Of a DNA stretch of 64,000 bases, positions 2,715 through 63,303 are shown piece after piece (position 1 is the stretch's first letter; each line of letters starts with the position of its first letter). A program made the position numbers and the translations under genes. Source of the DNA: Cyanobacteria bacterium SBLK (GTDB lineage Bacteria > Cyanobacteriota > Cyanobacteriia > Cyanobacteriales > Spirulinaceae); assembly GCA_017746715.1 (NCBI GenBank), contig JAGHZQ010000047.1, forward strand, positions 124,001 to 188,000, read 5' to 3'. Under the pieces are notes generated by a model that worked only from the letters and a program-made list of their open reading frames with translations, was not told where the DNA came from and ran no database searches.

Positions 2715-2750
2715 ATGTTTGGCTCGTGATGCTTTAAAAGGCTTTTAAAA

Positions 2751-3153
2751 TTTGTCGCTGAAGATTTCCCTAAACTGATTGCATCGATGCGATCGCATTC
2801 GCAATATCAGCACATCTCTGCGAACTTTTTCTCGCACGGATGATGAAAGCAATGAAGAAAAGACTTTTCAGGAGAGAGAAAGAGCGCCCAATCGCATTAC
2901 GATTGTAACAGAACTCAGTGAAGACAAAAAGAAGATTGCAATCCAAATTACCGACAATGGGATGGGAATATCAGAAGATATAAAAGCACGGATTTTCGAG
3001 CCAGGATTTCCCACGAAAGGAGTCGGAAAAGGGGCGGGATTGGGCATGGCGATCGCGAAATCTATCGTTACCGAAAAACACGGAGGACGAATATTTTGTC
3101 AATCGACATTCGAGCAAGGTACGGAATTTATGATTTCTTTGCCTGGGAGTTAG
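2751..3153 (+). pseudogene. Frameshifted, internally deleted histidine kinase relic
   Basis: The first frame, from about 2751, reads FVAEDFPKLIASMRS, matching the QDLPKLLDSM stretch of the upstream kinase. It then shifts frame so that RIRNISTSLRTFSRTDD continues in the frame that starts at ATG 2779. After DESNEEKTFQ (compare DEANQGKTFS upstream) the sequence jumps to the G boxes (TDNGMGIS, GKGAGLGMAIAK). The receiver, the HisKA histidine and the ATP-binding N box are all missing. The catalytic-tail codons remain open to TAG 3153. By resemblance it is a decayed tandem copy of the gene ending at 2714. A 124-residue protein could be made from 2779 but could not bind ATP normally. Confidence 0.8.
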
Positions 3154-3207
3154 AGAGGGAGAGCGATCGCTCTTCTTGTATTGAAAATTGTTAATGCAAA
3201 AGACACC

Positions 3208-3239
3208 TTCACGAGTTTTTCACAATCTTTACTTAAACT
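3208..3239 (+). promoter_or_regulatory. TTCAC-N6-TTCAC direct repeat with TAAACT -10-like box
   Basis: TTCAC occurs at 3208-3212 and again at 3219-3223, an 11-bp period, and TAAACT (3234-3239) begins 15 bp after the start of the second half-site. The same layout recurs at 23253-23284 and, inverted, at 63272-63303, always ahead of a kinase gene. Eleven-bp direct repeats are the usual binding geometry of OmpR/PhoB-family regulators. Placement beside the -35 position suggests activation (inference). This site would drive the unit that begins at 3266 and continues into the giant kinase. Confidence 0.6.
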
Positions 3240-3265
3240 AACGAATACATTACGAGGGTGGAAGG

Positions 3266-4315
3266 ATGGCAATACTCTCAACTAATTGGCCGAAGATTAA
3301 AAACTATCAGGTACTCGAACTCATCCATGACAGCGATCGCACCCTCGTTTATCCCACTCGAGAGGTCAATGACGGGCAATCTGTTGTTATCAAATTGATG
3401 CGAAATGAATATCCTTCTTTTCAGGAATTAGTCCAGTTGAGAAACCAATACGCGATAATGCTCTACATCGCTGACGCGAACGCCAAGAATTTAGAAATTG
3501 AAGGGATTGTCAGACTCTACACTCTAGAGCCATTGAGAGAAAGAGATATCGATCGCTCATTTGATTTTGCCAGTATCCTAAAAGCCCCGCAAGCGCTTGC
3601 AGAGATCGTTCGACGCGATGAGTTACTGCGTCGGCTGACTCAAATTATTTTGCAGAATAAGGATAGCGGGATTGGCATTGCCCTCGATAATATGGACAAA
3701 CTCTTCCAACCCCCCGTCCAAATCGACAGCGCCCTCAATCGCCGGTATGAAGAAACCGGGTTGGGTTTGGCATTGGTCAAACAACTCGTGGAACTTCACG
3801 GAGGGCAGGCGATCGCGACCGGCGAACCGGACATTGGCAGTTCCTTTATGGTAGATCTACCCCAAAACGCACCCAACCCATCCCCATCGCTACTGGCAAT
3901 GCCAACTATCATAGAGGAGGAACGCGAAACCCAACTCGATACGGCCCCATCCATTCTTCTCGTTGAGGACGATCTCGCTAACATTACCACCCTCTCGAGC
4001 TATTTAGAGCTCAAAGGCTACCGCCTGGCTCTCGCAGAAAATGGGCAAGAAGCGATCGAACTCGCGCGATCGCTGCGTCCCGATCTCATTCTCATGGATA
4101 TTCAAATGCCCGTGATGGACGGTCTCGAAGCGATAAAGCAAATTCGCCAAGAGATGAAGGAGATTCCCATTTTTGCCCTAACTGCATTAGTCATGAAGGG
4201 CGATCGGGAACGTTGCTTGGAAGTCGGAGCCGACGAATATCTGAGCAAGCCCTTAAAACTCAAGATGCTCAATGCGCTCATACAAAAGTATTTATCTAAA
4301 ATGCGAGAGTCTTGA
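3266..4315 (+). CDS. Collapsed in-frame miniature of the downstream giant kinase (kinase N-lobe remnant-HATPase tail-REC)
   Basis: The 349-residue frame stitches together four separate pieces of the 3247-residue protein encoded just downstream. Residues 1-80 match its Ser/Thr kinase N-lobe (VIKLMRNEYPSFQEL against VIKVLPREYPSFEEL). LEPLRERDIDR matches the end of its ATPase region. FDFASILKAPQALAEIV matches the start of its first GAF domain. Then comes the HATPase tail (FQPPVQIDSALNRRYEETG) and a complete receiver (about 225-345, Asp in LMDIQMPVMDG, SKPLK). Protein kinase catalytic residues, HisKA and the N box are absent, so only the receiver is likely functional. The whole frame stays open, which suggests selection or recent collapse. 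It starts at ATG 3266 after GGGTGGAAGG and lies 39 bp ahead of the giant gene, probably in the same transcript. Confidence 0.8.
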   Translation: MAILSTNWPKIKNYQVLELIHDSDRTLVYPTREVNDGQSVVIKLMRNEYPSFQELVQLRNQYAIMLYIADANAKNLEIEGIVRLYTLEPLRERDIDRSFDFASILKAPQALAEIVRRDELLRRLTQIILQNKDSGIGIALDNMDKLFQPPVQIDSALNRRYEETGLGLALVKQLVELHGGQAIATGEPDIGSSFMVDLPQNAPNPSPSLLAMPTIIEEERETQLDTAPSILLVEDDLANITTLSSYLELKGYRLALAENGQEAIELARSLRPDLILMDIQMPVMDGLEAIKQIRQEMKEIPIFALTALVMKGDRERCLEVGADEYLSKPLKLKMLNALIQKYLSKMRES

Positions 4316-4354: not shown

Positions 4355-7300
4355 ATGACCAGTCCTGCTAACCCGCCATCTCCCCTCTCACTACAACTTC
4401 CAGGCTATACCTTTGTCGAACTCATCTATCAAGGCAACCGGACAATGGTATTTCGCGCGCTGGAAACGGCAACCGGGCAATCCGCAGTCATTAAAGTCCT
4501 CCCTCGAGAGTATCCGAGTTTCGAGGAATTGGTGCGATTTCGCAACCAATACACGATCGCCAAAAATCTCCCGATCGCGGGGATCGTTCGCCCCCTGGGC
4601 CTAAAACCTTGGAAGAATAGTTACGGGTTGGTGATGGAAGATTTTGGAGGCATTTCTTTAGAAGAATACATAGATCGGCATCCCCTCGCCCTTGCCGAAA
4701 TTCTCGACATTGCCATCGAACTCGCCGCCATTTTGAGCGAACTCCACCGGCATCGGGTCGTCCACAAAGACATCAAACCAGCCAATATTCTCATTCGTCC
4801 CGACTCCAAACAAGTCAAGATGATTGACTTTAGTATTGCCTCGCTGCTGCCCAAAGAGACGCGAGAACTCCAGAGTCCCGGAAGTTTGGAAGGAACTTTG
4901 GCTTATCTGGCGCCAGAACAAACCGGACGCATGAATCGGGGAATCGACTATCGGACGGATTTTTACGCTTTGGGGGTAACCCTGTATCGATTGCTTGCCG
5001 GAGAACTGCCGTTCGCCAGCACAGATCCTTTAGAATTGCTTCATTGCCACATCGCCCGAGTGCCAACTGCTTTGGAACGGGTTAATCGAGAAGTACCGCC
5101 AGCAGTTGGGGCGATCGTTGCCAAATTGATGGCCAAGAATGCAGAAAACCGCTATCAAAGTGCTTCGGGTTTCAAGCACGATCTCGAACGGTGTCGGACT
5201 CAATGGCAGGATCGGGGCAAGGTTGCTGAATTTACGTTAGGAGAGCGAGATTGGTGCGATCGCTTTCTCATTCCCGAAAAACTCTACGGACGGGAAAAAG
5301 AAGTGCGATCGCTTCTCGATGCCTTTGAACGAGTTTCTGGTGGGGGAGCATCGGGAGAAAGTCGTTTACAAATTCTCCCATCTTCCCCTGCTTCTTCATC
5401 TTCCCACGTCGAACTCATGCTAGTAGCGGGTTATTCCGGCATTGGCAAAACAGCACTCATCAATGAAGTTCACAAACCCATCACCCGACAGCACGGTTAT
5501 TTCATCAAAGGCAAATTCGACCAATTCAATCGCAATATTCCTTTCTCAGCCTTCGTGCAAGCCTTTCGCAGCCTCATGGGGCAATTGTTGGGAGAATCCG
5601 ATCGTGCGTTGGTTCGCTGGCAAACTAGCCTCATCGAAGCGTTGGGAGAGAGCGGACAAGTTCTTATTGAGGTCATCCCGGAATTAGAGCGCATTATCGG
5701 AGCTCGGCCTCCCGTACCCAAACTTTCCGGCAGTGCGGCGCAAAATCGCTTCAATTTGCTCTTTGGTAAATTGATCCGGGCGATCGCTACTCGAGAGCAT
5801 CCTCTCGTCATTTTCCTCGACGATTTGCAATGGGTGGATTCCGCTTCGTTGAAACTCTTGCAGCACTTGATGGAGGATGAATTGGATTACCTGCTGGTGT
5901 TGGGAGCATATCGAGATAATGAGGTATGTCCCGCTCATCCCCTGATGCTGACCTTAAAGGAAATTCACCAACAGAAGGCCGTTATCAAGACTCTAACTCT
6001 AGAGCCGTTGAGAGAAAGAGATATCGATCGCCTCGTTGCCGATAGCCTGCACTGTTCGGTGGAGATCGCCCGGTCTCTCTCGCAATTGGTCTATCAAAAG
6101 ACCCGAGGAAACCCGTTTTTTGCCACCCAGTTTTTACAAGGATTGCAGGTCGATGGCTGGATTTCGTTTATTCCCCCTCAATCTCCCCTTATTAAGAGAG
6201 GAGGGCGTAAAGGGGGTTACTGGCAGTGCGATTTAACCCGAGTGCGACAACTGGCTCTGACGGATGATGTGGTGGCGTTTATGGTGGGACGACTGCGGAA
6301 ATTGCCAGAAAAGACGCAAAATGCGTTGACAATTGCCGCGTGCATGGGGAATCGGTTCGATCTCGAAACCTTGGCGATAGTTTGCGAACAAGATCGAGAA
6401 GAAGCAGCCGCCAATTTATGGCGATCGCTCCAAGTGGGTTTAGTCATTCCAGAAAACGAAACCTACAAGTTTTTTCAGGGAGAAGAGCGGGAGCTCGAAA
6501 CAATGGATGAGGTGCTCGTTCATTACCGTTTTTTGCACGATCGCGTCCAACAAGCCGCTTATACTCTGATTCCAGAAAACCGAAAATCTTTAACTCATTT
6601 GAATATCGGTCGGCTATTGCTCGAAAAAACAGCAAATTCACAGAGAGAAGAAAAAATATTTGAGATTGTCGGTCATCTCAATCTCGGACTGGAACTATTG
6701 ATGGAACGGTTCGAAAATACCGTTCTCGATCGTGCTTCTAGTCTGTTAGATAAAATTTCTGTCTCTGAAACCCAACTGCAAGCCTACGCCGTTAAAAACG
6801 AATTTATTGAGGGCATCCATGCTAGCTTGGCGTGCTTACAATTGCTGGGAGTCGATTTCCTTGACGATCCCAAATCTGAAGATTCTGAAGCTATTAATGC
6901 AGCTAAAGAAGGTGAGAAATACATCGATTCGATTGCCGGTTTTCCGATTTTATCAGAGTTTGCATTATTGACAAGCCTAACTCATTTAGCGGCAGCAGAG
7001 GTCACGACGAACGATCGCAAAAGGAAACATTTTGAGATGGCTCAATTCTGGAGCGATCGCCTCAAGATCTGGGCGGATAATGCTCCCATGAACTATCAGC
7101 ATCGGGCGGATCTAGTGGAGGCCGAACGGCAGCGAATTCTGGGCGATAAATTAGCAGCAATGGAACTTTACGATCGCGCCATCGCCGGAGCAAAAGACAA
7201 TGAGTACATCCAAGATGAGAGCCTGGCCAACGAACTCGCTGCCAAATTCTACCTCGACTGGGGTCTCGACTGCCCTCGGGGTTCGACTGAGGGAAGCCGA

Positions 7301-10300
7301 AGTCCGAACGGCAAAGAAAAAATTGCCGCAGTTTATATGCAAGAGGCTTACTATGGCTACCTTCGCTGGGGAGCCAAAGCCAAGGTCGCTCGCTTAGAAA
7401 CTCGCTATCCTCAACTCCTGCACCCCATTTTGCAGCCTCCCGCAGGAGCGGGAGAAGTGTTGGACGCTCTAACAGCCGTTACCGCGCCCGATATCTCGAC
7501 TCATTCGAGCAGTTCCAGCAGCAAAATCGAGCAAGCGTTCGATTTTGCCAGTATCCTGAAAGCCTCGCAAACACTGGCCGAGATCGTCGAACTCAGTGAA
7601 TTGCGACGTCAGTTGACTTGCATTCTTTGGCACAATTCGGGAAGCGATCGCTGCGCTCTCATTCTTCCCGACGAGAAAGGGGCATGGCGGGTGGAAGCGA
7701 TCGCCACTGCCGAGAATGTCGAACTCGATCGCGATCTCCTCGAGGGTCGCAACGATTTGCCCGTCAAGCTGATTCAGTATGTTAAAAACACCAAGGAAAT
7801 CTTGGCGATCGACAACGGCAAAACGGACTTGCTCCTTAGCGATCCCTACCTCCTCCAGCACCCGCCCCAAAGTCTTCTTTGCTTACCCTTACTGCATCAA
7901 GGGCAGTTGGCCGGTATTTTGTACGCCAGTAATAGCTCGATTCCGGGGGTGTTTACCCGCGATCGCATCCTCGTTCTCAACTTTCTTTGCACCCAAGCCG
8001 CCATCTCCCTCGAAAACGCAAGACTTTACCAGAACTTAGAACGACGAGTGGAGAAACGAACCTCAGCCCTGCGACAAAGCCAGCAAGAACTGACCGACTA
8101 TGTCGAGAATGCAGCCATCTCATTGCATTGGGTTGACAAAACTGGCACGATTATCTGGGCCAATCAAATGGAATTAGATTTCTTGGGGTACGATCGCGAG
8201 GAATATATCGGGCAGCCGATTGCCAAGTTTCACGCCGATCCCGAAGTCATTGCCGATATTCTCACCCGTCTCGCCAACGATGAAACCCTAGTAAATTACG
8301 AGGCGCGCTTGCGTTGCAAAGATGGCTCGATTCGCTACGTACAAATTAATTCTAATGTCTTTTATCGAGACGGAGAATTCATTCACACGCGCTGCTTTAC
8401 CACCGATGTAACCGAGCGCAAACTGGTGGAACGGGAATGGCGGGCGAGTCAACGGCGTTACGCCATGCTTGCCGATATGTTACCCACCGGAATTTTTCTC
8501 ACCGACCCCCAAGGCAACAGCCGCTATAACAATCCCAGTTGTTGCAAAATGCTGGGTCTCACCCCAGCAGAAGCCTCGGGAGAAGGATGGGCAAAAACGC
8601 TACATCCCGATGACCGAGAGCGGGTGTTCCAAGGATGGTATCGAGCCGCACAAAACCGACAGATGCCCTATCAAACCGACTGTCGCTTTCTGCATCGCAA
8701 CGGTAACGTCGTTTGGTTGAGCGTGCAAGCCGTTGAAGAATTCGACCTTGAAGGCAACTTGACCGGATATATCGGCAGCCTGACCGATATTACCGAACGC
8801 AAAGCTGCTGAAGCCGCTCTCAACAAACTGGTAGAAGGAACTGCCGCCACTACTGGCGAAGATTTTTTTCCCGCCCTCGTTCGTCACATCAGTACGGCGC
8901 TTGACGTTCCCATCGCCCTAATTACTCAATTTGTTGGCGAAGAATTACAAAGTATTGCTTTTATGGTTGATGGCGAACTGCAACCCAATTTTACCTACAA
9001 TTTACCGGAAACGCCTTGCGTCGAACTCGCGACCGAATACTCCTATTATTGTTCTCGCGGCCTGAGCGATCGCTTTCCCAACAATCCCCATCGAGAACGG
9101 GGAGTCGAGAGCTATCTGGGGGTAGCCCTGCGCGATCGCCAAGGGCAAGTCTTGGGAAGTTTGTGCATCTTCGATCGCCAACCCCTGCGAGACCCAGAAC
9201 GCGCCCGGCAAATTCTCGAAATCTTCGCCAGTCGCACCGCCGCAGAAATGCAGCGCCAGCGCGTCGAAACTGCCCTGCACAATCTAATTTCCGGGACTGC
9301 CGTGACCAATGGAGCGGATTTCTTTCCCCTCCTCGTCCGTCACCTGACAGAAGCCCTTGGCGTATCCCACGCCCTCATGGCGGAGCGAGTGGGAGATGAA
9401 GAAATCACCCTCGCCTATTATGGCGACGGCGAGCGCATTCCTTGCAAATCCCTATCCCTTCTCGCTACCCCCTGCGAGGAAGTATACGATCGCGGCGCTT
9501 ACTACTGTGAATTAGAACCCTGCCAGACCTGTTCGGAACTGGCGAAGATGGCGGCCAAGAGCTATCTGGGGGTGGCCCTGTACGATCGCCAAGGCAATAC
9601 AATAGGACTGCTTTGCATTTTCCACCGCCAGATTCTCTCCGATCCCCTGCATGCCGAGCAAATCTTGCGGGTGTTTGCCGCCCGTGCCGCAACCGAACTC
9701 GAGCGCCAGCGTGCGGAAATTGCCCTGCAAAACCTCATCGCCGGTACGGCCGCATTAATCGGTCCGGACTTTTTCCCCGGCCTCGTCCGTCACATCGCCG
9801 AAGCCCTCAACGCCTCCCAAGCCTCTGTGACCGAAGTCGTGGAGGGCGATCGCTTGCAGCTTTTGGCCGCGTGGAAAGATGGGAAATATCTTCCCACCGA
9901 TACCGTCGCTCTCAAAGGACGCATCTGCGAAATTGTCCTTCAGAGAGGCGCGTACTACTGCGATCGCGATGTGGCGGATCGCTTCCCTCACAATACCGGG
10001 CTGGCGGCGATGGGGGTCGAAAGTTACATGGGAGTGGCCCTGCAAGATCGCCAAGGCCGCAAAATCGGCACCCTTTGCATCCTTTCTCACCAGCCCCTCC
10101 CCGACCCGGAGCGATCGAAGCAAATCCTGCGAGTGTTTGCCGCCCGCGCTGCTGCCGAACTCGAGCGCCAGCGCGCGCAAACCGCCCTAGAACAATTGAA
10201 TCGGGATTTAGAACGACGCGTGGAAGAACGCACTCGAGAGATCGTGCGCTCCGAACGAGATTTACGCACCATCTTTAACAATGTTTACGACGGCATTTTT

Positions 10301-13300
10301 ATTCACGATTTGGATGGCAGCATTCTCGATGTCAATAATCGGGCCTTAGAACTCTTCGGCGCGACGCGGGGACAAATTCTGGCGACCCCGATCGCCGATC
10401 TATCCGCGCCAGATTCTCCCCCCGAAAATCTTCCAGAACTCCTCAAACCAGCGATCGCGGGAGCAAAACTGCAATTTGAATGGAAACATCGACGCTTTGA
10501 CAATTCCCTTTTTGATTCGGAAGTTTCCGCACGTAAGGTCACTTTAGGCAACCGCTCGGCGATCGTCGTCGGGGTGCGCGACATCAGCGATCGCAAACGC
10601 GCTGAAAACGCCCTGCAAGAAGAACGATTGCGTCTCGCCCTGGCCTTGGATGCTGCCAAAATGGGGACTTGGAGTTGCTCTGTGGCAACGGGCAAGCTCA
10701 TTTGGTCGGAACGGGCGCAAGAAATCTTTGGTTTTGAAGCCGGTACATTTCCGGGCGATCGCGACACTTTTATTGATATGATTCATCCTAACGATCGCGA
10801 TCGGGTACTGGCGGCAATTACCGCCACCTTTGAGACTGGAGCGCCCTATCAGATCGAATACCGCATTCGCCGCCTCGATGGAGAAATCCGTTGGCTTGCC
10901 GTCTGGGGACGCACGCGCCCCCATCTGTCTTCATTAGACTCGCAACTGGTGGGGGTCGTCGTCGATATTAGCGATCGCAAAGTCGCAGAAGAGAAACTCC
11001 GAGCGAGCAAACGCCGCTATGCCACCCTCACCGCCGCCGCACCGGTGGGAATTTTCCGCACCGATGCCCTTGGCAATTGTCTTTACGTTAACGAGCGCTG
11101 GTGTCGAATCGCGGGACTGACCCCAGAAGAGGCCGCCGGACAGGGATGGCGACAGGGATTGCACCCGGAGGATCGCGATCGCATTGCCGCCGAGTGGTAT
11201 CGCGCCGTACAAGAGAATTGCCTCATCCAGCTCGAGTGTCGATTTCAACGTCCCGACGGGACGGTGAGTTGGGTGTACGCTCAGTCCGTTGCCGAACGAG
11301 ATACGACCGGACGGGTCTTCGGTTATGTCGGGACGGTCGTTGACATTACCGAACGCAGGCAGGCAGAAGAACGGTTGAAAACCCTGTCAGAACGCCTCGA
11401 GCTTGCCCTTGAAGGCGCAAAAATCGGCATCTGGGAGTGGAATGCGGCGAGCGATCGCTTAATTTGGGACGATCGCATGTTTTCCCTGTACGGTATCGCC
11501 CCCGAGGATTTTTCCGGTCGAGGTGAAGATTGGCGCAAACGCGTTCATCCCGACGATCTGGCTCGCGCGGTACAGCAAGAAGCCACCTCACTCCGCAAAC
11601 GAGGAGTAGCCGCCACGGAGTATCGGATCGTTCGTCCCCATGGAGAGGTTCGCTTTATTTACGCCAATATCATCGGCCAAAAAAATGAGGCCGGCGAACT
11701 GGTGAAAATGATTGGCTTGAACGTGGATATTACCGAGCGCAAAAGTATAGAATTAGCCCTCCAAACCAGCGAACGCCGTTACGCCAGTTTAGCGGCCACC
11801 GTTCCCGTGGGAATTTTCCGCACCGATACTGACGGACATTGCATTTACGTCAACGATCGCTGGTGTCAGATGGCCGGTCTCGCTTCGGAAACAGCCGCTC
11901 GGGAAGGATGGCAACAAGGATTGCACCCCGACGATCGCGATCGCATTGTCGCCGAATGGTATCGCGCCGCCCGAGAAAATTGCCCCTTTCAGCTTGAATA
12001 TCGGTTTCAACATTCCGATGGGACGATCGTGTGGGTCTACGGACAGGCCGCGGCCGAGCGGGATGCGGAGGGGCAAATCATCGGCTACGTCGGCACCCTG
12101 ACAGATATCACCGATCGCAAAGAAGCAGAATTAGCCCTGCAAGACGCTCAGGCTCAATTCCGACGCATGACCGAAAATATACCGGGAACGATTTATCGCC
12201 ATGTCGTGCATGCCGACGGCCGCAACGAGTATACTTATGTTAGTTCTCGAATTCGCGAGATGTTTGAACTCGAACCCAAAGCCGTTCTCCAAAATGCCGC
12301 CTGTTTGCGAGAGAGAATTCACCCCGAGGATATTGCCCGAGTCGATGCGGCAGTGCGGGTGTTTGCCGAGACTTTGCAGCCTTTTACCAGCGAATACCGG
12401 CTGCTCTTACCGCAAAAGGGACTTCGCTGGGTCCAAGCGATGTCTCGCCCGGAACGGCTGGCTAATGGCGATACGATTTGGGATGGAGTCGTGCTGGATA
12501 TCAGCGATCGCAAAAGATCCGAACAACAATTGCGAGGGCTTTCAGAACGGTTGGAATTGGCGATTCTCTCGGCTTGCATCGGCATTTGGGAATATGACTA
12601 TCAAAATGATGTCCTCTCTTGGGATGAGGTCATGTTTGCCATCTATGGGGTGCGCTCGGAAGATTTTGGCGGGACTCTCAAAGATTGGGAACGATGCGTC
12701 CATCCCGAGGATTTAGCCGAGGCCAAGCATGTTGCAGAAAACGGCGAACATCGTTTGACTCATGAATATAGAATTAGACGACCCGACGGTACGATTCGGC
12801 ATATCTTTTCTACGGCATTAGTCGAGTGGGACGAACAGAAGCAATTAACCCGTGCCATCGGCACGAATATCGATATTAGCGATCGCAAGCAAGCAGAAGC
12901 GCAACTCCAGCGGAGCAATCAAGAACTCGCCCGCGCCACTCGTTTGAAAGACGAGTTCCTTGCAAATATGAGTCACGAACTGCGAACCCCCCTCACGGCG
13001 ATTCTGGGAATGGCCGAGGGGCTGCAAGAGGAGGTTTTCGGCCCGGCGAACGCAATGCAACAAAAAGCCCTTGAAACCATCGAACAAAGTGGGTCGCACC
13101 TACTCGAACTGATTGATGACATTCTCGACTTGTCCAAGATCGAGTCGGGGCGGGTCGAGCTAGAATATTCCTCCGTCGCCATAGAGCATCTGTGCCAATC
13201 CAGTTTGATTTTTATCAAGCAACAGTCTCAGAAAAAAAGCATTCAACTACATCTAAACGTTCCTGCAAACTTACCGGATATTACCGTTGACGAACGGCGG

Positions 13301-14098
13301 ATGCGTCAGGTTTTGATCAATTTACTGAACAATGCCGTGAAATTTACCCCCGAAGGCGGGCAGATTGCCCTTGAAGTCGTGCCGTTACCGTCTGGCGAAA
13401 CTCGCAGCCAAAACACCCTGCGTTTTGCCGTGACGGATACGGGGATTGGGATTGCCCCGGAGGATATCAAAAAACTGTTTCAGCCTTTTGTACAGATTGA
13501 CAGCGCCCTCAATCGACAATATGAAGGTACTGGCCTCGGTTTGGCCCTGGTCAAACAGATTGTCGATCTCCACGGCGGCCGGGCGACCGTCACGAGCGAG
13601 ATGGGGATTGGCAGCTGCTTTGCTATCGAGCTGCCCTATTCTACCTCCGTGAGTCTTTCTCCGGTATTAGAAGATGCGTCTGCGACGGATTTGACTGCTC
13701 CCGTCCGGTCTCCTGTCGCCCCCCTCATCCTCTTGGCCGAAGACAACGATGCGAATATCGGTACCCTCTCGAGCTATTTACAAGCCAAAGGGTATCGCCT
13801 TCAAGTTGCCAGAAACGGGCAAGCCGCGATCGACATGGCTCGGGATCGATCTCCCAATCTCATTCTCATGGACGTTCAAATGCCCGGCGTGGATGGGTTG
13901 AGCGCCATCGAACGCATTCGCCAAGATCCGGATCTGGCTCGCGTTCCCATCATTGCACTGACGGCACTCACCATGGAAGGCGATCGAGAGCGCTGTCTGG
14001 CAGCAGGGGCCAATATGTATCTCAGCAAACCCGTCAAACTCAAACAGTTAGTTTTATCTATTCAAAAATTGTTAACCAATGAGGTAGTAACGGCATGA
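4355..14098 (+). CDS. Giant Ser/Thr kinase-ATPase-GAF-PAS-histidine kinase-REC protein
   Basis: A 3247-residue soluble signalling protein. Domains in order: Ser/Thr kinase about 15-280 (Lys47, HKDIKPANILI near 135, DFS in place of DFG, APEQTG); AAA-type ATPase about 310-620 (Walker A GYSGIGKT 359-366, Walker B IFLDDLQW); helical repeat region to about 1010; GAF 1062-1225; PAS 1245-1360 and 1367-1485; three tandem GAF repeats 1489-1945; seven further PAS/PAC units about 1970-2850; HisKA with FLANMSHELRTPL near 2870; HATPase (N box NLLNNAVKF, GTGLGLALVK); C-terminal receiver about 3120-3240 (LAEDND, LMDVQMPGVDG, SKPVK). The front end matches the cyanobacterial dual Ser/Thr-His kinase family typified by Anabaena HstK. 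DFS-type variants occur in that family, so loss of Ser/Thr activity is not implied. Signals are unknown. The next kinase overlaps its stop by 4 bp. Confidence 0.93.
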   Translation: MTSPANPPSPLSLQLPGYTFVELIYQGNRTMVFRALETATGQSAVIKVLPREYPSFEELVRFRNQYTIAKNLPIAGIVRPLGLKPWKNSYGLVMEDFGGISLEEYIDRHPLALAEILDIAIELAAILSELHRHRVVHKDIKPANILIRPDSKQVKMIDFSIASLLPKETRELQSPGSLEGTLAYLAPEQTGRMNRGIDYRTDFYALGVTLYRLLAGELPFASTDPLELLHCHIARVPTALERVNREVPPAVGAIVAKLMAKNAENRYQSASGFKHDLERCRTQWQDRGKVAEFTLGERDWCDRFLIPEKLYGREKEVRSLLDAFERVSGGGASGESRLQILPSSPASSSSHVELMLVAGYSGIGKTALINEVHKPITRQHGYFIKGKFDQFNRNIPFSAFVQAFRSLMGQLLGESDRALVRWQTSLIEALGESGQVLIEVIPELERIIGARPPVPKLSGSAAQNRFNLLFGKLIRAIATREHPLVIFLDDLQWVDSASLKLLQHLMEDELDYLLVLGAYRDNEVCPAHPLMLTLKEIHQQKAVIKTLTLEPLRERDIDRLVADSLHCSVEIARSLSQLVYQKTRGNPFFATQFLQGLQVDGWISFIPPQSPLIKRGGRKGGYWQCDLTRVRQLALTDDVVAFMVGRLRKLPEKTQNALTIAACMGNRFDLETLAIVCEQDREEAAANLWRSLQVGLVIPENETYKFFQGEERELETMDEVLVHYRFLHDRVQQAAYTLIPENRKSLTHLNIGRLLLEKTANSQREEKIFEIVGHLNLGLELLMERFENTVLDRASSLLDKISVSETQLQAYAVKNEFIEGIHASLACLQLLGVDFLDDPKSEDSEAINAAKEGEKYIDSIAGFPILSEFALLTSLTHLAAAEVTTNDRKRKHFEMAQFWSDRLKIWADNAPMNYQHRADLVEAERQRILGDKLAAMELYDRAIAGAKDNEYIQDESLANELAAKFYLDWGLDCPRGSTEGSRSPNGKEKIAAVYMQEAYYGYLRWGAKAKVARLETRYPQLLHPILQPPAGAGEVLDALTAVTAPDISTHSSSSSSKIEQAFDFASILKASQTLAEIVELSELRRQLTCILWHNSGSDRCALILPDEKGAWRVEAIATAENVELDRDLLEGRNDLPVKLIQYVKNTKEILAIDNGKTDLLLSDPYLLQHPPQSLLCLPLLHQGQLAGILYASNSSIPGVFTRDRILVLNFLCTQAAISLENARLYQNLERRVEKRTSALRQSQQELTDYVENAAISLHWVDKTGTIIWANQMELDFLGYDREEYIGQPIAKFHADPEVIADILTRLANDETLVNYEARLRCKDGSIRYVQINSNVFYRDGEFIHTRCFTTDVTERKLVEREWRASQRRYAMLADMLPTGIFLTDPQGNSRYNNPSCCKMLGLTPAEASGEGWAKTLHPDDRERVFQGWYRAAQNRQMPYQTDCRFLHRNGNVVWLSVQAVEEFDLEGNLTGYIGSLTDITERKAAEAALNKLVEGTAATTGEDFFPALVRHISTALDVPIALITQFVGEELQSIAFMVDGELQPNFTYNLPETPCVELATEYSYYCSRGLSDRFPNNPHRERGVESYLGVALRDRQGQVLGSLCIFDRQPLRDPERARQILEIFASRTAAEMQRQRVETALHNLISGTAVTNGADFFPLLVRHLTEALGVSHALMAERVGDEEITLAYYGDGERIPCKSLSLLATPCEEVYDRGAYYCELEPCQTCSELAKMAAKSYLGVALYDRQGNTIGLLCIFHRQILSDPLHAEQILRVFAARAATELERQRAEIALQNLIAGTAALIGPDFFPGLVRHIAEALNASQASVTEVVEGDRLQLLAAWKDGKYLPTDTVALKGRICEIVLQRGAYYCDRDVADRFPHNTGLAAMGVESYMGVALQDRQGRKIGTLCILSHQPLPDPERSKQILRVFAARAAAELERQRAQTALEQLNRDLERRVEERTREIVRSERDLRTIFNNVYDGIFIHDLDGSILDVNNRALELFGATRGQILATPIADLSAPDSPPENLPELLKPAIAGAKLQFEWKHRRFDNSLFDSEVSARKVTLGNRSAIVVGVRDISDRKRAENALQEERLRLALALDAAKMGTWSCSVATGKLIWSERAQEIFGFEAGTFPGDRDTFIDMIHPNDRDRVLAAITATFETGAPYQIEYRIRRLDGEIRWLAVWGRTRPHLSSLDSQLVGVVVDISDRKVAEEKLRASKRRYATLTAAAPVGIFRTDALGNCLYVNERWCRIAGLTPEEAAGQGWRQGLHPEDRDRIAAEWYRAVQENCLIQLECRFQRPDGTVSWVYAQSVAERDTTGRVFGYVGTVVDITERRQAEERLKTLSERLELALEGAKIGIWEWNAASDRLIWDDRMFSLYGIAPEDFSGRGEDWRKRVHPDDLARAVQQEATSLRKRGVAATEYRIVRPHGEVRFIYANIIGQKNEAGELVKMIGLNVDITERKSIELALQTSERRYASLAATVPVGIFRTDTDGHCIYVNDRWCQMAGLASETAAREGWQQGLHPDDRDRIVAEWYRAARENCPFQLEYRFQHSDGTIVWVYGQAAAERDAEGQIIGYVGTLTDITDRKEAELALQDAQAQFRRMTENIPGTIYRHVVHADGRNEYTYVSSRIREMFELEPKAVLQNAACLRERIHPEDIARVDAAVRVFAETLQPFTSEYRLLLPQKGLRWVQAMSRPERLANGDTIWDGVVLDISDRKRSEQQLRGLSERLELAILSACIGIWEYDYQNDVLSWDEVMFAIYGVRSEDFGGTLKDWERCVHPEDLAEAKHVAENGEHRLTHEYRIRRPDGTIRHIFSTALVEWDEQKQLTRAIGTNIDISDRKQAEAQLQRSNQELARATRLKDEFLANMSHELRTPLTAILGMAEGLQEEVFGPANAMQQKALETIEQSGSHLLELIDDILDLSKIESGRVELEYSSVAIEHLCQSSLIFIKQQSQKKSIQLHLNVPANLPDITVDERRMRQVLINLLNNAVKFTPEGGQIALEVVPLPSGETRSQNTLRFAVTDTGIGIAPEDIKKLFQPFVQIDSALNRQYEGTGLGLALVKQIVDLHGGRATVTSEMGIGSCFAIELPYSTSVSLSPVLEDASATDLTAPVRSPVAPLILLAEDNDANIGTLSSYLQAKGYRLQVARNGQAAIDMARDRSPNLILMDVQMPGVDGLSAIERIRQDPDLARVPIIALTALTMEGDRERCLAAGANMYLSKPVKLKQLVLSIQKLLTNEVVTA

Positions 14099-23252: not shown

Positions 23253-23284
23253 TTCACGAGTTTTTCACAATTTCCCCGTATACT
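23253..23284 (+). promoter_or_regulatory. TTCAC-N6-TTCAC direct repeat with TATACT -10 box
   Basis: TTCAC lies at 23253-23257 and 23264-23268 (11-bp period). TATACT at 23279-23284 begins 15 bp after the start of the second half-site, exactly as at 3208-3239. The shared block extends through GAGTTTTTCACAAT. The REC-kinase start is 80 bp downstream. Confidence 0.65.
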
Positions 23285-23364
23285 AAAGATGAAGATCGTT
23301 CTTCTCCTACACGAGATCGTCTCTTCTATCCATAAAATATCAATTGTTAAGAAACATAAATATC

Positions 23365-61105: not shown

Positions 61106-63178
61106 TTAAATCGGAATGGAAACAATAAATTCTGCCCCATTTCCGAGAGAAGAAATACAACTTAATTCTCCACCGTGACGCTCCACCGCAATCGAATAAC
61201 TAATCGATAATCCCAAACCCGTACCTTTGCCAATTTCTTTGGTGGTAAAAAACGGATCGAATATTTTTCGACGGGTTTCTTCCGACATGCCAGGACCATT
61301 ATCGACAATACAAACCATCGCAAATTTCTCCTTTAACATTGTATGAATGCGGATTGTTGGTTTTTCTATCTCTCCCGCGATCGCTCCTAGTTCTAAAGCA
61401 TCGATCGCATTGCTAATTAAGTTCAGAAAAACCTGATTCAGCTGTCCCGGATAGCATTCAATTTTCGGAAGTTGTCCGTATTCTTTCGCGATTTGAATTT
61501 CCGGACGGTTGGATTTAGCTTTGAGACGATTTTGTAAAATTAATAGCGTGCTCTCTATACCTTCATGTAAGTCTGCCTGTTTGCGATCGGCCTCATCCAA
61601 GCGGGAAAAATTCCGCAAGCTGACAACAATTTCTCGGATGCGTTGAGTGCCGATTTGAATTGAATTGAGAACTTTAGGCAAATCCTCCTGTAAAAACTCG
61701 ATATCGATTTCTTCTTTTTCTTCGGCAATTGCTGGTGTTTCTTGAGGATATTCTTTGTCGTACAGTTGCAGCAAATCGAGTAAGTTGGTCGCATAAGCCT
61801 CTAAATGTCTCAAATTGCCATAAATAAAATTTACGGGATTATTAATTTCGTGGGCAATTCCCGCGACCATCTGCCCTAAACTCGCCATTTTTTCATTTTG
61901 AATTAATTGGGTTTGGGTTTTTTGTAGTTTTATGAGGGTCGCTTGCAAATCCTCATTTTTATCTTTTAATTCTCGAGTCCTCGTCGTTACTTTTTCTTCT
62001 AAAGTAGAACTATAGTCCTGCAATTGTTCGTAGGATTTTTGCAATTGTTCTGTCAGTTGGTTAAACGTACGAGCGAGAATGCCAATTTCGTTATCCGTTA
62101 AAACTGGAGCGGTTTGCAGTTCGGCAAACTGCCCCTCTCTAACTTTTTCTCTCAGCGATCGCGCGGTTTGGGCGATCGCTAAAATCGGTTTGACGATGCG
62201 ACGGCTCATGAAGAGAATGCCCGCCGCTAAAATTGCAGACAGTGCCGAACCCACAAACAGAATAGCATAAGCCAAGCGGCGAGCGGGAGCAAAGGCTTCG
62301 GCTTGTTCCATCTCCACCAACAAGGCCACATCCCGCGCATCCAGCCAGCGATAAGAACCAATCACGGGAATGCCTCGATAATTCCCATACAGCCCGCGAT
62401 CGCTTTTTCCCATCATTGCCTGCTCGATTCCCTCACTTGCTATCCCGTCGGGAAACTCCTCCGAGCCAAATCCTGCCGCCGAAACAAAAGCATTGCGATG
62501 GGTAAAATTAGTCCCCAAATTGGCCACTAAATAGGTTTCTCCCGTCTCCCCCAAACCGCGATCGTCTCGGATAATTTCGTCGAGGCGATCGAGATTGAGA
62601 TGTACCGCCAAAACCCCCAAACGCTTTCCTTCTGCGTTGAAAATAGGAGTTGCGAGGGTGACGGCAGGGCGATCGCCATCGGAAGCGCGATAAAAGTTCG
62701 CAGCAAAAAATTCATGAACATTCCCCATCACTTCGATGCTTTGATCGAGGGGTTCGTAACGACCGATTTTTTCGGAATGGGTAGACGCAACGATCCGATT
62801 TCCCCGAGACAGGAGAAAAATTTCCCGATAGTCAGCGCGATCGCCAATAAAGCCCCCCAAAGAGGCTTGCAAATTCTTTAACGCCGTTTGATATTCGAGG
62901 GTCGATTTTTTCGAGCCGAGCAAAACCCGCGCCTGTTCGCCGATTTCGGGCAAGCGACTGAGGGAAACAAAGGTATTGCGACGATCGCGCAACCAGCGAT
63001 TTAATTCCCCTTCCTTGAGGGAAGCGATCGCCGTCAAGCGGTCGAAAATAGATTCTTTGAGAGATTCCCTCGCCTCGCGAAAAGCAACGTACCCCACCAA
63101 TGCCACGATCGCCAAGGACAGCAGCGAAAAAGAACCGACAATTTGCACCAGCAGGCTTTTTTTCCAGAATTTCAGCAT
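61106..63178 (-). CDS. Membrane histidine kinase (Cache-HAMP-HisKA-HATPase)
   Basis: A 690-residue sensor. Helix 1 is at about 9-31, followed by an extracellular Cache-type domain of about 270 residues, helix 2 ([21 protein letters not shown]), HAMP, and a coiled coil at about 375-430. HisKA has His443 in [19 protein letters not shown]. The HATPase has [18 protein letters not shown] and [11 protein letters not shown]. There is no receiver. The sensor half matches the adenylate cyclase at 33951-35723 along its whole length, giving two outputs for one sensor type. It starts at ATG 63178. A solute-binding protein gene ends 154 bp upstream on the same strand, and the TTCAC repeat lies in that gap. 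Confidence 0.92.
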
Positions 63179-63271: not shown

Positions 63272-63303
63272 AGCCTAATTAAAGATTGTGAAAAACTCGT
63301 GAA
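63272..63303 (-). promoter_or_regulatory. TTCAC-N6-TTCAC direct repeat with TAGGCT -10-like box
   Basis: On the minus strand TTCAC lies at 63303-63299 and 63292-63288 (11-bp period), and TAGGCT (63277-63272) begins 15 bp after the start of the second half-site, as at the other two sites. The flanks GAGTTTTTCACAATCTTT match the site at 3208 exactly. It would drive the kinase gene starting at 63178. Confidence 0.6.

Follow-up and report, generated by a model that had tools for sequence, protein, structure and literature searches.

A probable young chimeric relic of giant kinase genes behind a TTCAC-box leader in a cyanobacterium

Results

The window analysed here, a 64,000-nucleotide stretch of the genome of Cyanobacteria bacterium SBLK (C61:124001-188000), carries on its + strand an open reading frame of 349 codons without a stop (3266-4315; hereafter the miniature). 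It is followed, 39 nt downstream, by a giant kinase gene of 3247 residues with the Pfam architecture STK-AAA-GAF-PAS-HK-REC (4355-14098, + strand). Two further large kinases, A (1802 residues; C61:110311-115719) and B (1843 residues), are adjacent to each other, and their junction lies 12 kb upstream of the miniature. A single BLASTP comparison of the miniature, made against the adjacent giant only, gave four colinear segments (E 3e-72 to 4e-4) matching giant residues 14-~80, 541-559, 1058-1097 and 3028-3241, with 57% identity in the C-terminal part. A first-pass annotation of this DNA had described four non-adjacent segments of the giant, joined in frame into 349 codons and ending in a complete receiver. 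The open frame and the BLASTP matches bear out the first part of this description and Pfam the second (receiver at residues 230-339, E 9.5e-30). The annotation overlooked the differing origins of the segments, an in-frame insertion of 24 nt and the leftward continuation of the locus as the tail of a kinase gene (2749-3153).

The miniature is composed of several pieces, all on the + strand. The start codon and the first 64 codons belong to a Ser/Thr kinase N-lobe of the B type (3266-3457) and are followed by the 24-nt insertion (MLYIADAN; 3458-3481), which is absent from the paralogs in the protein alignment and has no second copy in the genome at up to 3 mismatches. The end of the N-lobe piece (AKNLEIEGIVRLY; 3482-3520), which aligns with kinases A, B and those of C119, leads into a 36-bp patch (TLEPLRERDIDR; 3521-3556) that is a near-copy of the AAA region of the giant. 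Then come a piece from the start of a GAF region (SFDFASILKA...; 3557-3661), 75% identical in DNA to positions 7538-7636 of the giant, the C-terminal part of an HATPase_c domain (3662-3865) and the complete receiver (3950-4303). According to Pfam, BLASTP and the model, the miniature has lost the majority of the functional domains that its parent genes encode. Pkinase was not detected by Pfam in the miniature, where only N-lobe residues remain and no complete Ser/Thr kinase domain. HisKA and the N-box half of HATPase_c are missing, and of the histidine kinase core (HisKA plus a full HATPase_c) only HATPase_c from profile position 36 on (36-109) is left. The receiver occupies residues 229-346 of 349 with 228 residues of debris in front, and so is not essentially the whole protein.

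The receiver pocket is complete, with the acidic pair E234/D235, the phospho-Asp D278, T306 and K328 all recognised by Pfam, the model and conserved columns. Of the 28 receiver columns that 90% or more of the homologues conserve, 2 are changed in the miniature, which is ordinary. The ATPase piece, lacking HisKA and the N-box, is catalytically dead. It departs at 4 of 26 such columns, and F150P, G163E and S186G are without precedent among 66 homologues. Relative to the median, the branch of the miniature is 5.2 times as long in the ATPase piece and 2.4 times in the receiver. This contrast in conservation appears mild, and the numbers are too small to prove that the receiver has been retained. 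In an AlphaFold2 model built from 14 sequences, pLDDT exceeded 90 only in the receiver (about 229-348) and was below 50 almost throughout residues 1-112; the receiver is the sole part of the miniature predicted to fold.

Over 615 bp, positions 2842-3456 of the window share 89% identity with C61:115408-116022, a region that runs from the 3' end of kinase A across the A-B intergenic sequence into the 5' end of kinase B. The identity is unequal along this stretch. It amounts to 94.9% between the kinase tail (2842-3153) and the end of kinase A (dS 0.095, dN/dS 0.45), 89.3% between the leader (3154-3265, +), which is common to kinase B, and the A-B intergenic region of the same length, and 79% between the first 64 codons and kinase B (dS 0.72, dN/dS 0.22), so that exchange or conversion probably took place at different times. 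The value for the tail suggests recent duplication or gene conversion. This tail, an HATPase_c end with its stop codon found by Pfam, forms the right part of ORF 2779-3153 (+). To its left lies a relic of an HstK-type C-terminal kinase region (2749-2841, +), 78% identical to C61:120747-120851 in kinase B, on the upstream side of an internal deletion, where the alignment passes straight from A 10207 to A 10408, about 200 bp being lost relative to kinase A. ORF 2779-3153 is therefore the relic of a kinase-A-type tail with an internal deletion of its own. Directly upstream of kinase A lies a second decayed HATPase tail, interrupted by a stop and by frameshifts (L041:5087-5202), and collapse has thus probably occurred more than once in the kinase array. 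The 7.4-Mb genome contains about 20 large STK-bearing kinases, with at least two adjacent groups (C61 and C119), and the ATPase/receiver query has over 150 matches in it. A scan of the genome contigs was dominated by the common receiver motif, its matches being ordinary hybrid kinases, and plasmid records gave only short receiver matches to the miniature.

The first-pass annotation had taken the miniature for a copy of the adjacent giant, and this stands for the 36-bp patch but not for the other pieces. A single mismatch separates the patch from positions 5996-6031 of the giant (35/36), the two agreeing without interruption over at most 24 bp, whereas the remaining pieces match at 63% (N-lobe), 75%, 70% and 66%; at a background of 75%, the probability of such a patch arising by chance is about 4e-4. 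The leader, the N-lobe and the preceding tail are closest to the two upstream HstK-type kinases. Segment 3 has its nearer amino-acid matches in paralogs of other species (79% for L133, then 73% and 69%), its identity with the giant being 63%. A tree of the ATPase-receiver piece, built on 67 homologues, pairs the giant with a sister gene on contig C41 (support 99/95). The miniature lies apart from the giant in this tree, in a position of its own that is weakly supported (86/68). The GAF-side and ATPase/receiver pieces thus appear to derive from a paralog other than the adjacent giant, and the ORF reads as a recently stitched patchwork to which two or more giant kinase genes have contributed.

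One junction had been placed beside a GATCGC core after DIDR. The site exists (3545-3556), but its adjacency is unremarkable: GATCGC/GCGATC occurs 438 times in the 64-kb window, the hexamer being 14 times over-represented, and 8.7% of window bases lie within 6 bp of a copy, so that one junction in three beside it is not surprising. A link of HIP1 to recombination has been reported as tentative (PMC4390886); as a specific junction signal here, HIP1/GATCGC was rejected. If lengths were random, the odds of a single frame over three joints, the insertion and the receiver would be about 1/27 to 1/81 by our own estimate.

The leader harbours a TTCAC direct-repeat box (TTCACGAGTTTTTCACAAT; 3208-3226, +) that is likely regulatory and follows the form TTCACRAGTTTTTCACAAT, with an 11-bp spacing. 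The earlier observation that the miniature lies between a TTCAC sequence and the giant gene is confirmed, as exact copies of the box number 13 genome-wide, against none in the reversed control. Within the window it is found at 3208-3226 (+), 23253-23271 (+) and 63285-63303 (-), and it stands upstream of kinases A and B, the hybrid kinase after B, the miniature and the kinase genes at 23344 and 61106-63178; the copies looked at are located just 5' of Ser/Thr-His or histidine kinase genes. Among relatives, the box occurs twice in the congener and once each in two other members of the family, and in none of the other 35 searched. It is plausible that the box is the operator of one OmpR/PhoB-type regulator controlling a set of sensor kinases. 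The start codon, the ribosome-binding sequence and the box are all preserved at the miniature. The 39-nt gap between the miniature and the giant contains neither a TTCAC box nor a sigma-70-type promoter match, and no terminator-like site on the + strand.

Selection was tested with a purpose-written branch codon model, which evaluates omega on the terminal branch of the miniature piece by piece. Omega was about 0.12 in the N-lobe (background 0.22), about 0.15 in the ATPase piece (background 0.11) and 0.08 in the receiver (background 0.11). Although omega = 1 over the whole branch was rejected for all three pieces, none of them differs significantly from its background. The synonymous/non-synonymous comparison that the first-pass annotation had proposed for the receiver gives the lowest value of the three, but one not significantly below background. 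The N-lobe and ATPase pieces are unable to fold as enzymes, so their low omega most likely stems from the period in which they belonged to full-length genes. Given that no excess of amino-acid change is seen even in these pieces, the collapse is probably young and has left little neutral time. The miniature has no stops and omega is not raised on its branch, the time since collapse being probably too short for relaxed selection to show. Dating by the 36-bp patch is a loose inference from one mismatch (1/36; 95% interval 0.07-14.5%). If it holds, a neutral frame of the size of the miniature would still be open with a probability of 0.33-0.70 at 1-3% divergence and 0.03 at 10%, and the open frame is therefore poor evidence for retention.

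The search covered 293 genomes of the order; besides the present one, 12 belong to the family, and one of those 12 to the genus. A joint-spanning peptide found a full-length match in none of the 292 other genomes. Seven shorter HATPase-REC frames in relatives were discarded as candidates for the same miniature, five of them having HisKA and an ATPase domain and two being cut by a contig end. The first-pass annotation had held that absence from relatives would indicate ongoing decay; absence from all 292 other genomes agrees with this in part only. Its description of the miniature as a kept gene is not upheld, since the miniature is present in no relative searched and the codon models leave too little time since the collapse to test retention.

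Discussion

The ORF is probably a young relic, a chimera of giant kinase genes that sits behind a captured TTCAC-box leader. Recombination inside the local giant-kinase array would have fused a tail-leader-start junction of the A/B type with what was left of a second giant gene that carried a receiver. At least three joints would have deleted almost the whole of the kinase, AAA, GAF/PAS and HisKA regions. One of these joints would carry about 36 bp from the neighbouring giant, copied in as filling or over older sequence, and short shared sequence borders this patch on both sides (ACTCTAGAGCC and GATCGC). Transcription from the inherited leader probably continues; the product can form a receiver, with neither a phosphodonor of its own nor an effector, and would be devoid of selected function, the frame being open mainly because the relic is recent. 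This reading is favoured by the differing best source of each segment and the patch standing out from its 63-75% background, by the adjoining kinase-A tail relic with its deletion and the second decayed tail, and by the absence of the miniature from other genomes together with an omega that is not raised and three unprecedented changes in the ATPase piece. Against it speak the one frame kept over three joints, insertion and receiver, the lowest omega in a receiver whose pocket is intact, and the preserved start codon, ribosome-binding sequence and TTCAC box.

The relic explanation is compatible with promoter capture, a plausible but rather unlikely reading in which the protein itself would be of no account and the effect of the fusion would be to put the giant under an HstK-type TTCAC-box leader, the relic now being part of an operon leader. 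The preserved box and leader (3154-3265) and the composition of the 39-nt gap are consistent with this proposal, although a promoter of the giant could lie within the relic and the regulatory role of the box is presumed.

It is rather improbable that the miniature is a retained stand-alone receiver, which would be phosphorylated at D278 by the giant or another histidine kinase and would act as a phosphate sink or as a competitor of the receiver of the giant. Single-domain regulators are described as hubs or sinks (for example PMC5964349). The complete pocket, the fold predicted for this part alone, the lowest omega, the common frame across all joints and the similarity to the C-terminal part of the giant would all suit such a role. 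However, the miniature is not conserved in the 292 other genomes, the low omega over the whole branch is explained by time in a full-length gene, the receiver branch is longer than the median, and about 228 extra residues lie ahead of the domain, over 100 of which have a pLDDT under 50. There is also a slim chance that the ORF is a newborn receiver gene, generated by recombination in the giant-kinase array through a single step or a few, which would intercept the phosphate of the downstream giant while being co-expressed with it, the giant too having come under a new regulatory box.

An assembly artefact is very unlikely: short reads of similar kinase genes might have been misjoined in a draft genome of 123 contigs with many kinase paralogs, but the reading frame is intact, and there is no long repeat to mislead an assembler, since all pieces except the patch diverge by 5-37% from the closest genomic copy and the patch has no exact run above 24 bp. 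Collapse of a copy of the adjacent giant itself by internal deletions is scarcely credible, for despite the colinear segment order and the nearly identical patch, the N-lobe is nearer to kinase B, segment 3 to genes of other species and the C-terminal piece is not sister to that of the giant, which contradicts such an origin unless conversion from another paralog had replaced the greater part of the giant.

Duplication, shuffling and deletion have been reported for the HstK-type dual Ser/Thr-His kinases of cyanobacteria (PMC2176072). The leader and N-lobe of the miniature resemble these kinases (cbSTKIII; HstK, Alr2258, of Anabaena), which are their source, and kinases A and B are adjacent and have the order STK-AAA-GAF-HK, as does the pair Alr0709/Alr0710 (PMC2176072). 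Unlike HstK-type kinases, the miniature has no C-lobe, AAA, GAF core or HisKA and only half of HATPase_c, so that no kinase function is left. It shares with single-domain response regulators one complete receiver and no output domain, but differs from them in the kinase debris ahead of the receiver and in its lack of conservation in the relatives searched. As in the chimeric or truncated pseudogenes of tandem arrays, it is a mosaic of paralogs beside a second relic (2749-3153) and is restricted to one species as sampled, yet its frame is open across all joints.

If the ORF is a relic, it offers a clean and recent snapshot of the reshuffling of a cyanobacterial giant-kinase array, in which the joints, the patch and the captured leader can still be read. 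If its receiver is active, it would represent a new signalling component born of gene collapse beside its likely phosphodonor.
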